Under the pieces are notes generated by a model. That model saw nothing but the letters and a program-made list of their open reading frames with translations, was not told the origin of the DNA and ran no database searches. Positions 1 to 6,033 of a stretch of DNA of 49,612 bases are shown here, in pieces. The position numbers and the translations under genes were made by a program. Source of the DNA: Desulfurococcales archaeon (lineage in GTDB: Archaea; Thermoproteota; Thermoprotei_A; Sulfolobales; Acidilobaceae); assembly GCA_015520195.1 (NCBI GenBank), contig WAQN01000050.1:1-49612 (forward strand), in the 5' to 3' direction. How positions within the stretch are numbered: the first letter of the stretch is position 1; each line of letters begins with the position of its first letter.

Positions 1-59
1 ATATTAGAGGGATAGGGATGAGCTCGATGAGCTAGGTGAGGGGGACTATGGGATGAACC

Positions 60-191
60 CCTCTTCGCCGAAGGGAGCCCCTGGGCTCCCGTAGGCGGGG
101 GGGAGGGGGATGGAGAAGCCGTGATGAACCCAGCCGTGCCCGATACAGTATGACACAATCCGTTAAATGAAGACACGGTTCGGGTGAACGG
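60..191 (+). mobile_element. Copy 1 of a short structured element, candidate IS200/IS605-TnpB right-end / omegaRNA-like sequence without a transposase; left boundary unknown
   Basis: 121-191 aligns without gaps to 5757-5827 (60/71 identical by hand count). Upstream hairpin region is also similar (gggagcccctgggctcccgtaggcgg vs gggagccctgctcccgcaggcgg). Terminal hairpin ccgtgcc...cacgg followed by ttcgggYgaaYgg. Family assignment is inference. Confidence 0.6.
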
Positions 192-1904: not shown

Positions 1905-3644
1905 TTATGATGCTTGGTGTCTTGGTTTTAGCCTTCTCCGGGCTAGTATTGCTATTATTAGTATTATGATGGGTCCGAGCTCGATAGGTGTTATTCTGGC
2001 TGGTATTGGTTGGAGAGCGTTATTCTCGATAGTACTTATGATTATCCTCATGAATATGAATGGGGTTATGGATAGGGCTAAGAATATTATGGAGTATACT
2101 GCTAGAGTAGCACGCCTACCAGCTGTTATTATTAGCGATGCTAGAAGGGGTGCTATGAGTACGGAGAGAGTCATTATCTGGCTAGATGGCACATTTATGG
2201 TTAATGATGGCGTCACCGCGTATCTCTCCATTAAACTAGTTATTCCCAGTGCGAAGCGGCCTGGCCAAATCCAGTAGGAGGCTGTGAATAGTGCTGCTGT
2301 CAGGTATGCCATAGCTATTGCTGTAGAAGACTTCATCATGGAGAACCCTGTCCTCACCCCTAGTAATGCCGCTATTAAAGTGGCTGCAATGAATACTGCT
2401 AGCCTTAGGATGAAAGGCTCAGGTTTTGGTAGGCTAGTTACAAGCGGGTTCTCTTGAACCTCTACCACAACCTCGCCTGCTAATAATGGGGTGAGGGGTA
2501 TACTTGGAATATATGCTAACCCGTCGGCAGCAGGTCTCCACTCTCTACTCCCTGCCAGGAATGATTGTAGATTCACCTCTCCTCCACGATCTGGCATGAG
2601 CCGTTTTACTCCATCTATCCCCTCATCCCTGAAAGTTTCCAGGATTCTAAGTATTGAAGGTATCCATCCAGGGGCTGGCTTGTAATGATTATTGTTGCCG
2701 TCGAATGCAACGTAAACTCCAGCGCCTCCCTCCTCCAATGCCTTGAGTGTTAGGACTAAACCTTCTATCGGGAAGTACTCATCATGGCCGGAGAAGGCTA
2801 TATAGAATAATTTGTCTCTGAGCCCACCCTTCTCTCCAGAGTATTTTATATATGCAAGAGGGTCTGAAGCTGCAAGCTTCTCCACAACGTCACTAGTAAC
2901 CCCGGTAGATGCTGGGCCCACTAGGTTGGCTAGCCCTCCTGACTGTATCATACAGCTTAGGCATCCAGAAGCCACAATGGGTACTGCTAGGGTGACATCT
3001 GGATGAATGGAGGCCACTACATAACTGGTTAAACCACCCATTGAGACTCCTGAAATAGCTATTTTCCCAGGCTCTGCTCCTAGCGCCTTGGCTACCTCGA
3101 CAGCCCTAACTCCGCTGACGTAAACGTAGTATAGGAAGAAGTCGCCTGGCTCTATACTTAGAGCCTTATCCTTCCATGACTTCCCTCCTGGTATGCATGA
3201 GAGGCCGTGTCCAGCTGCATCTATTGATAGAACCTTAAAGCCCCTAACGGCTAGCTCATAGGATAGCTTATAGCCGTCTAATTCCTCCTCGAAGAATTTA
3301 TGGGTTCCACCTAACCCATGGACGAGTATTATCCAGGCATTGCCCTGGACCCCTGAATCATAGATGAAGCCGTGTATCATGCAATCCTTCATTTTAGGGA
3401 GGAGGGGGAAAGATATATGCACCACCCTAATCGTCTTACCCTTATAAAATACATCCTCAGATCCCATCTCCACTATAGAGAGGCCTGAGCTCCAGTTGAA
3501 GCCCCAAAGTTTCTTATATACCTCTTCATCGAGCGCTGGCGTTTCAATGTATGAGTCCCATGAAGCATCTAGTATTGTTAATAAACTAGATACTCCAATA
3601 ATAATAAAAATCAAGAATAAACAGTAAGAAACTCTGCTATTCAT
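1905..3644 (-). CDS. Alpha/beta hydrolase-fold membrane protein (N-terminal anchor, several C-terminal TM helices)
   Basis: Long ORF; LVHGLGGTHKFFEEELDGYKLSYELAVRGFKVLSIDAAGHGLS, nucleophile elbow GVSMGG, hydrophobic C-terminus. Confidence 0.85.
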   Translation of the reverse strand: MNSRVSYCLFLIFIIIGVSSLLTILDASWDSYIETPALDEEVYKKLWGFNWSSGLSIVEMGSEDVFYKGKTIRVVHISFPLLPKMKDCMIHGFIYDSGVQGNAWIILVHGLGGTHKFFEEELDGYKLSYELAVRGFKVLSIDAAGHGLSCIPGGKSWKDKALSIEPGDFFLYYVYVSGVRAVEVAKALGAEPGKIAISGVSMGGLTSYVVASIHPDVTLAVPIVASGCLSCMIQSGGLANLVGPASTGVTSDVVEKLAASDPLAYIKYSGEKGGLRDKLFYIAFSGHDEYFPIEGLVLTLKALEEGGAGVYVAFDGNNNHYKPAPGWIPSILRILETFRDEGIDGVKRLMPDRGGEVNLQSFLAGSREWRPAADGLAYIPSIPLTPLLAGEVVVEVQENPLVTSLPKPEPFILRLAVFIAATLIAALLGVRTGFSMMKSSTAIAMAYLTAALFTASYWIWPGRFALGITSLMERYAVTPSLTINVPSSQIMTLSVLIAPLLASLIITAGRRATLAVYSIIFLALSITPFIFMRIIISTIENNALQPIPARITPIELGPIIILIIAILARRRLKPRHQAS

Positions 3645-5394: not shown

Positions 5395-6033
5395 GCTTGG
5401 ATAGTTTGTCCTCTTCTCTTTTCCAAGTATTCTATGAGGGCTACTATCACGACTGCTATGGCGATCACTACATCCGTGAGCAAGTATTACCCATACACCC
5501 TCCTTAACTTCATTCCAGGGAAAGGGGGGAGAGTAATGTGTGTAACCCTAACGGTCTTGCCCTTATAAAGGGGCAGAAACCTTAGTATTATGACTTTTTG
5601 TATCGAATTGTATCTTTCTATGCTTCTGAAGCTATTTGCAGCTCATATTGGGGAATCCCTAATAAAACTTATAACCCTCGGGGTTATTAGATTTAACTGG
5701 TGACCTCGGGGTTCCCGAGGGGAGCCCTGCTCCCGCAGGCGGCCCCGAAGGAGACCGTGATGAACCCAGCCGTGCCCGATGTAGTTTGTCACAGTTCGAT
5801 ACATGAAGGCACGGTTCGGGCGAATGGTTCCTTGGATCCCGCCTCCTCTATATGGAGGCCTGAGCTCTGGTCGAAACTCCAAAGCCTCCTATATACACTC
5901 CTTCATCTAGCATTGGCGTCTCAACATATGAGTCGTGTGAGGCGTCTAACAGGGTTAGCAGGCTTGACACTCCAACTAGCAGCACTACCAAGAATAACCT
6001 GTGGAAAACCCTACTATAATGTAATGGAGACAC
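5395..6033 (-). pseudogene. Decayed, internally deleted paralogue of the 1905-3644 hydrolase, interrupted by element copy 2
   Basis: FLVVLLVGVSSLLTLLDASHDSYVETPMLDEGVY matches FLIFIIIGVSSLLTILDASWDSYIETPALDEEVY; further on YKGKTVRVTHITLPPFPGMKLRRVYG matches YKGKTIRVVHISFPLLPKMKDCMIHG; then an in-frame stop and a short TM-like remnant VVIAIAVVIVALIEYLEKRR. Confidence 0.85.
5570..5827 (+). mobile_element. Copy 2 of the structured element (about 258 bp insertion), omegaRNA-like / IS605-derived candidate
   Basis: Alignment to the intact paralogue (3400-3480) breaks after cccttataaa (5569) and resumes at about ttccttggatccc (5828). Contains hairpins ataaccc-tcg-gggttat (5671-5687), cctcggg-gtt-cccgagg (5704-5720), gggagc-cct-gctccc (5720-5734) and ccgtgcc...ggcacgg (5770-5776/5808-5814). 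Confidence 0.7.

Follow-up and report, generated by a model that had tools for sequence, protein, structure and literature searches.

What interrupts a copy of a hydrolase gene at positions 5570-5827 of this archaeal contig, and how did it come to lie there? The window analyzed here is the whole of contig C50 (49,612 nucleotides) from the genome of a heat-loving archaeon (1.32 Mb, 64% complete). We consider it probable that the interrupting DNA is an IS607-type MITE, essentially a solitary omegaRNA gene, that IS607 TnpA moves and that a divergent TnpB-like nuclease may serve in trans. The features of the locus are listed in Table 1.

Table 1. Positions of the features in the window, with the evidence for each
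Feature	Position	Strand	Evidence
Second RNA/right-end copy; RNA complete, left part lost at the contig edge	50..191	+	Genome search; covariance model
Remnant of the hydrolase paralogue, forming one flank of the insertion	5500..5569	-	Alignment to the intact paralogue
GGGG target at the left junction; IS607-type core in its last two bases (GG, 5572-5573)	5570..5573	+	CCCC empty sites in G021; in-frame reconstruction
Conserved left end, GGGGCAGAAAC...	5570..5634	+	Profile matches in about 50 loci; first bases common to host IS607 left ends
Minus strand of the left end: what remains of the parental TnpB-like ORF (its last ~55 bp)	5570..5634		Alignment to the 1314-bp G012 element
Internal-deletion junction, approximate	5626..5643	.	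Alignment to L044
Remains of the start codon (ATGAGCT..) of the parental ORF	5644..5646	-	Alignment to L044
TATA-like palindrome CTTATAA, some 26 bases upstream of the RNA	5668..5674	+	Sequence; comparison of upstream regions
Structured omegaRNA-like RNA of 131 nt, Sso133-related; its 3' end is the right terminus of the element	5697..5827	+	Covariance model; covariation; strand test; Rfam RF02814 (subthreshold)
Terminal pairing of CCGT (5755-5758) with the RNA 3' end ATGG (5824-5827)	5755..5827	+	Consensus fold; covariation
3' hairpin CCGTGCC (5770-5776) / GGCACGG (5808-5814)	5770..5814	+	Consensus fold; covariation; shuffle test
N-terminal remnant of the hydrolase paralogue, opposite side of the insertion	5828..6033	-	Alignment to the intact paralogue

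The insert and its target site

Both flanks of the insert were aligned to the intact paralogue, a minus-strand gene for an alpha/beta hydrolase within 1905-3644. As the earlier note had described, the alignment stopped after cccttataaa and picked up again at ttccttggatccc, and reconstruction against the paralogue confirmed that the insertion at 5570-5827 is real. When four bases, GGGG, were put back at the joint, the alignment with the paralogue became gap-free and in frame, which leaves a net insert of 254 bp with GGGG as its target. The hydrolase copy carrying the insert is an N-terminal remnant, so the gene was either already decaying at the time of insertion or decayed afterwards. The insert encodes no protein and contains no TnpA ORF, which agrees with its original description as non-autonomous, and no target duplication was seen.

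The target was also investigated in the complete genome G012 (1,669,696 bp, same family as the host) and its sister genome G021. A single concatenated query made of the joined flanks of G012 copies was searched against G021, and orthologous empty sites were found for two related copies (95% and 91% identity). Both empty sites read CCCC, which is GGGG on the other strand, and the G012 copies at these sites read CCGT...CCCC. In the orientation of Table 1, the target is GGGG, and the element begins after GG(GG) and terminates in ..GAAYGG with no duplication; the duplication-free insertion proposed earlier is thus borne out by the empty sites in G021 and by the in-frame paralogue joint. Reading of the joined sequences showed that the coding flanks of two G012 copies (L135 and L137) were also in frame once four bases had been restored, and that a flank of L039 was two bases out of frame under a single-GG model; the flanks of most copies were not open in this frame test. 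An IS605-type target, AYGG (CCRT on the other strand), had fitted the frame in the window and in other cases, but it was rejected because the empty sites of the sister genome read CCCC, which makes AYGG part of the element.

Structure and relatives of the RNA

The fold of the RNA part of the insert was better than that of all 200 shuffled sequences (z -3.57). Alignment of 22 distinct RNA copies gave a consensus with two hairpin domains and a 3' end that pairs with an upstream CCGU. The consensus energy was -38.1 on the strand that the earlier note had read as RNA and -22.7 on the opposite strand, and 16 of the 17 loci outside the model training also folded better on the former; these data and the 3' end at 5827 support the RNA strand and right end named there. 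Compensatory changes were found in 11 of 29 pairs in the first alignment (MAFFT). A wider alignment gave 25 of 29 pairs (shuffled mean 17) and 163 changed cells (48 in shuffles), and sliding the partners gave far lower values and destroyed the signal, but these figures are favoured because the wider alignment was itself fitted to the structure. The covariance model scored the window RNA at 140 bits, with the window copy included in the training set.

The 5' extent of the RNA appears to vary among copies. A GATGAGC..GAGG stretch some 40 nt upstream of the modelled RNA is conserved in many relatives (L003, 1440-1483, and distant loci); it is probably a 5' extension of the RNA that is absent from the window copy.

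The RNA model also matched the canonical omegaRNA region of IS607 TnpB elements of the host, on the TnpB strand (E 0.0017-0.015). These matches end at, or a few bases from, a terminal ACGG; they are individually weak, and three independent loci agree in register. The Rfam model Sso133 (RF02814), which is named for a Sulfolobus sRNA, scored 24.5-29.6 bits in the host genome, under the gathering cut-off of 44. Of the 22 genomes searched, 10 had matches above the cut-off, all ten of family f11, and the matches in Sulfolobales were strong. Judged by these model comparisons, the window RNA is homologous to Rfam Sso133 and to the guide RNAs of host IS607 TnpB elements.

The parent element and its TnpB-like protein

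A G012 element of 1314 bp (L044) was aligned with the window element, and the two matched over the first ~195 and the last ~60 bp. The ORF body of L044, ~1.1 kb, is missing from the window element, in which about 200 bp remain on one side of the deletion and some 60 bp on the other. On this alignment, the window element is a MITE that arose by deletion from a 1.3-kb IS607-ended element. The L044 ORF (371 aa) runs from the right end to the left end, antisense to the RNA. The sole protein of full-length relatives is a TnpB/Cas12f-like protein of ~350 aa, and these elements have no transposase. The earlier note had proposed looking for a full-length element with tnpB. TnpB-like relatives were indeed found, but their gene lies on the opposite strand and points away from the RNA; this opposite-strand parent gene, and the identity of the RNA as the known Rfam family Sso133, are the two points that the note had missed. 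Its description of the element as TnpB-derived and omegaRNA-like is upheld by the deletion relation to L044, by the covarying RNA, and by the model match to IS607 TnpB RNAs.

No intact parent or copy of the parent ORF was found in the host genome (64% complete). The TnpB-like gene on host contig C38 (L061) belongs to a distant subfamily; it was considered as the direct parent and rejected, since its upstream RNA matches only weakly and its ends differ on inspection, which makes it a distant cousin. Both L061-type element ends (L061, 2060-2185) lie on the left of a canonical TnpB fragment on host contig C90 (L008, 1-260), which suggests that a MITE of the L061 subfamily inserted in or beside that tnpB. 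A small MazE/AbrB-like ORF (L061, 987-1149; PF04014, E 3e-10) precedes and slightly overlaps the C38 TnpB-like gene, and a 51-aa ORF that overlaps the start of another TnpB-like gene (contig C72 of G068; L038, 453-605) has a ribbon-helix-helix look by eye and no Pfam match. Small DNA-binding partners of this kind may be a recurring accessory of the TnpB-like gene.

Relatives of the TnpB-like protein were found in 60 of the 216 genomes of the order, and also in MAGs labelled Baldrarchaeota, Methanosarcinales, and Thermoproteota. The RuvC triad (D209, E273, and D346) was invariant in 15 TnpB-like sequences. None of the 15 has the CxxC motif of the zinc finger (CxxC...CxxC) in the RuvC region, but the motif is present in the canonical TnpBs L100, L105, and L111. 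An AlphaFold2 model (pLDDT 81.8, pTM 0.61) was compared with the PDB by Foldseek, and the closest structures were Cas12f (best E 7.4e-11, TM 0.52; second match TM 0.61). An HMM search of PDB sequences with the TnpB-like alignment gave no matches, so that the relationship was detected by fold comparison only. The TiaS locus (L009), which gave a weak match to PF07282, was rejected as a TnpB.

Divergent arrangement of the RNA and the TnpB-like gene

In the current understanding, a TnpB guide RNA forms the 3' tail of the message for its nuclease and is excised by TnpB itself. The canonical TnpB RNA lies downstream of tnpB, on the strand of the gene, and processing of the tnpB mRNA can release it (PMC11061315, PMC10278001). 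We paired RNA matches with TnpB-like ORFs at distances of up to 1 kb. At 31 of the 32 covariance-model loci, the RNA was not at the 3' end of the gene on the same strand; it lay upstream, on the other strand, and was oriented away from the ORF, and since the loci are related this count describes a conserved layout rather than independent trials. The one exception is a second model match beside an element that also has a normal one. Rfam Sso133 matches had the same divergent layout in 14 of 14 cases, with the Rfam strand assumed to be the experimental one. The ORF starts 200-600 bp behind the RNA in full-length elements. An RNA in this position needs a transcript of its own, since it cannot derive from the TnpB-like mRNA. 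The CTTATAA before the RNA is predicted as a promoter that could drive the RNA and the ORF divergently. An identical layout was found in MAGs labelled Baldrarchaeota and Thermoproteota (L089, 1241-1385; L091, 2179-2290), which suggests that it may extend beyond this order.

The main rival explanation is that the RNA regulates genes of the element or the host, as an antisense or trans-acting small RNA, and is not a guide for the TnpB-like protein. There is precedent in S. solfataricus, in which RNA-257 paralogues, derived from the transposase gene of the IS607 element ISC1904, act in trans to repress a host mRNA and many antisense RNAs lie opposite transposase genes (PMC3674436). However, the RNA studied here does not overlap the TnpB-like ORF and is transcribed away from it, and its linkage to the TnpB-like gene persists in many genera. 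Its fold, its 3' terminus, and its position relative to the element ends are also those of canonical TnpB guide RNAs. We regard a purely regulatory role as unlikely.

Copies in the host and related genomes

The DNA search found matches to the insert at six other places in its own genome and relatives in 24 of 149 related genomes, which provides the alternative insertion sites on which the original reading had been made to depend. The covariance model found nine RNA copies in the own genome and relatives in 65 of the 216 genomes of the order. Apart from the insert, the own genome has one full copy on C76, a right half at window 50-191, and incomplete copies on C35, C59, C132, and C74. The contig starts inside the right-half copy (window 1-191), so the assembly probably broke in the repeat. 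With matches elsewhere in its own genome, in relatives, and across the order, the insert is not a chance sequence. A MITE on C132 (L006, 360-700) has the same left end, GGGGCAG, but a right end resembling canonical IS607 TnpB omegaRNA, and represents a second class of solitary RNA in the host genome.

G012 has 14 RNA copies (L040-L044 and L134-L139), among them about ten MITEs and two elements with an ORF. The nine G012 copies with both ends have identical ends and unrelated flanks. The copies at several sites in the host and the G012 MITEs whose orthologous sites in G021 are empty indicate that the element family is mobile. These data bear on a second rival, that the RNA is a domesticated solitary host RNA which is no longer mobile and whose insertion was old and passive. 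Such a history would suit the remnant state of the hydrolase copy and the lack of a parent ORF copy in the own genome, but about nine copies are present there at different sites, and two of the about ten G012 MITE copies have empty orthologous sites in the sister genome. We consider domestication quite unlikely.

Element ends and family placement

The element has GG at both termini and a G-rich target that is not duplicated. The IS607 family uses GG targets with a (G)GG preference, has GG termini, and makes no duplication (PMC6188088). IS607 elements in G021 (L190), the own genome (L194), and G031 (L195) carry GGGGCAGWAAC, or a sequence very close to it, at their start and an IS607 TnpA after it, and the right ends of L190 and L195 read ..AATGAAGCGGTAGGG..RAACGG. 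The window element thus has ends in common with autonomous elements that encode IS607 TnpA (L190, L194, and L195 on the left; L190 and L195 on the right), with a left-end similarity to host IS607 elements that is short. It has no TnpA serine recombinase of its own and is therefore only a derivative of the IS607 family; the own genome has one IS607 TnpA gene, outside the insert. An IS607 TnpA-TnpB pair adjoins a full-length TnpB-like element on contig C72 of G068 (L038, 1943-3821) and is a possible trans-mobiliser.

The earlier note had proposed an IS200/IS605 origin for the element, and a PATE-like derivative of such a Y1 (HUH) element, with the hairpins as single-stranded DNA ends bound by TnpA, would also leave no target duplication. 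GGGG adjoins the left end at most sites, and the terminal ACGG can base-pair with a CCGT that precedes the end hairpin, in the manner of an IS605 guide/cleavage pair. However, no Y1 TnpA was found in the own genome (64% complete), the complete genome G012, or G021; inspection revealed no CCCC guide close to the left end that could pair with the target tetranucleotide; and the strand-asymmetric fold stability suits an RNA better than DNA hairpins. Because the left end is common to IS607 elements of the host that encode a serine recombinase, the GG termini and G-rich target follow published IS607 behaviour, and Y1 TnpA is missing, we assigned the ends to IS607, and an IS605 origin is very unlikely. 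That a duplicated host gene or untranslated region mimics an insert is hardly credible, as nothing except the location inside a paralogue speaks for it and the same two ends recur at unrelated sites.

Proposed mechanism and its implications

What was observed is the insertion with its target and ends, the deletion, the conservation of the RNA and its strand preference, the divergent linkage, and the nuclease triad. Most likely, an IS607-type MITE serving as a solitary omegaRNA gene would work as follows. An IS607 TnpA supplied in trans would move the element by serine recombination at GG. The RNA would be transcribed from its own promoter and continue past the right end, so that its 3' extension would take the adjoining host DNA, ttccttggatccc..., as a putative guide, and the GGGG flank would act as a TAM-like motif. 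By the prevailing view, canonical TnpB cleaves the vacated site and so favours retention of the element. A TnpB-like nuclease encoded by other copies could likewise bind the RNA, cut the vacated site, and favour retention. One point against a MITE moved by TnpA is that the complete genome G012 has 14 RNA copies and neither IS607 TnpA nor Y1 TnpA, so that the mobiliser there may have been lost. The out-of-frame flank of L039, the lack of an intact parent in the host genome, and the weakness of the single omegaRNA matches also count against the overall explanation.

We hold more tentatively, as slightly more doubtful than probable, the broader proposal of a distinct OMEGA layout, in which an independent guide-RNA gene is divergent from a TnpB-like nuclease without a zinc finger and with an intact RuvC triad, and in which the MITEs are guide-only parasites that lack the nuclease and are retained by it in trans. 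If true, this would show how a guide RNA and its nuclease became separate genes, a step needed toward CRISPR effectors, in a lineage that is widespread in archaea and has a very small nuclease without the zinc-finger motif. It would also account for Rfam Sso133, which would be the guide RNA of a transposon, and the protein-less MITEs would be predicted to be mobile guides. These predictions can be tested in cultured Sulfolobales.

Comparison with known systems

The RNA family, the protein family, and the IS607 ends are each already known. In the literature searched, which lay outside the key subscription papers, no report links the RNA family, the TnpB-like family, and the IS607 ends or describes the divergent layout.

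The element has in common with the IS607 family the GG termini, the GG-containing target, the absence of duplication, the left end GGGGCAGWAAC, and an omegaRNA-like RNA that ends at the right terminus. In contrast to that family, the insert encodes no protein, and its full-length relatives have no TnpA and a TnpB-like gene on the opposite strand. IS607 TnpBs with RAGATH-18-derived RNAs are described among OMEGA systems (PMC11061315). As in TnpB omegaRNA/reRNA, a conserved structured RNA has its 3' end at the right end of the transposon, with the adjacent flank available as a guide, but the canonical RNA is downstream on the strand of tnpB and the present one is upstream on the other strand.

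The RNA-257 paralogues of S. solfataricus are solitary RNAs from an IS607 (ISC1904) transposase gene that are transcribed and active in trans (PMC3674436). They are likened here by description, not by sequence, as solitary RNAs left over from an IS607 element, but they come from the sense 3' end of a canonical tnpB. The Sulfolobus MITEs SMN1 (320 bp) and SM3A, described with terminal inverted repeats (PMC3718332), are likewise comparable by description, as short non-autonomous elements of hyperthermophilic archaea that need a transposase in trans, whereas the window element has no terminal inverted repeats.

Most of the TnpB-like parent proteins match the NCBIfam families TIGR01765 or TIGR01766, but they have no Pfam match and no zinc-finger motif, and the divergent RNA is outside the family definitions. 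Although the host copies score below the gathering threshold of Rfam Sso133 (RF02814) and the 3' half of the RNA lies outside the Rfam model, the two RNAs are homologous by model comparison, and the strong Sulfolobales matches of Sso133 likewise lie upstream of genes for these TnpB-like proteins, in divergent orientation.
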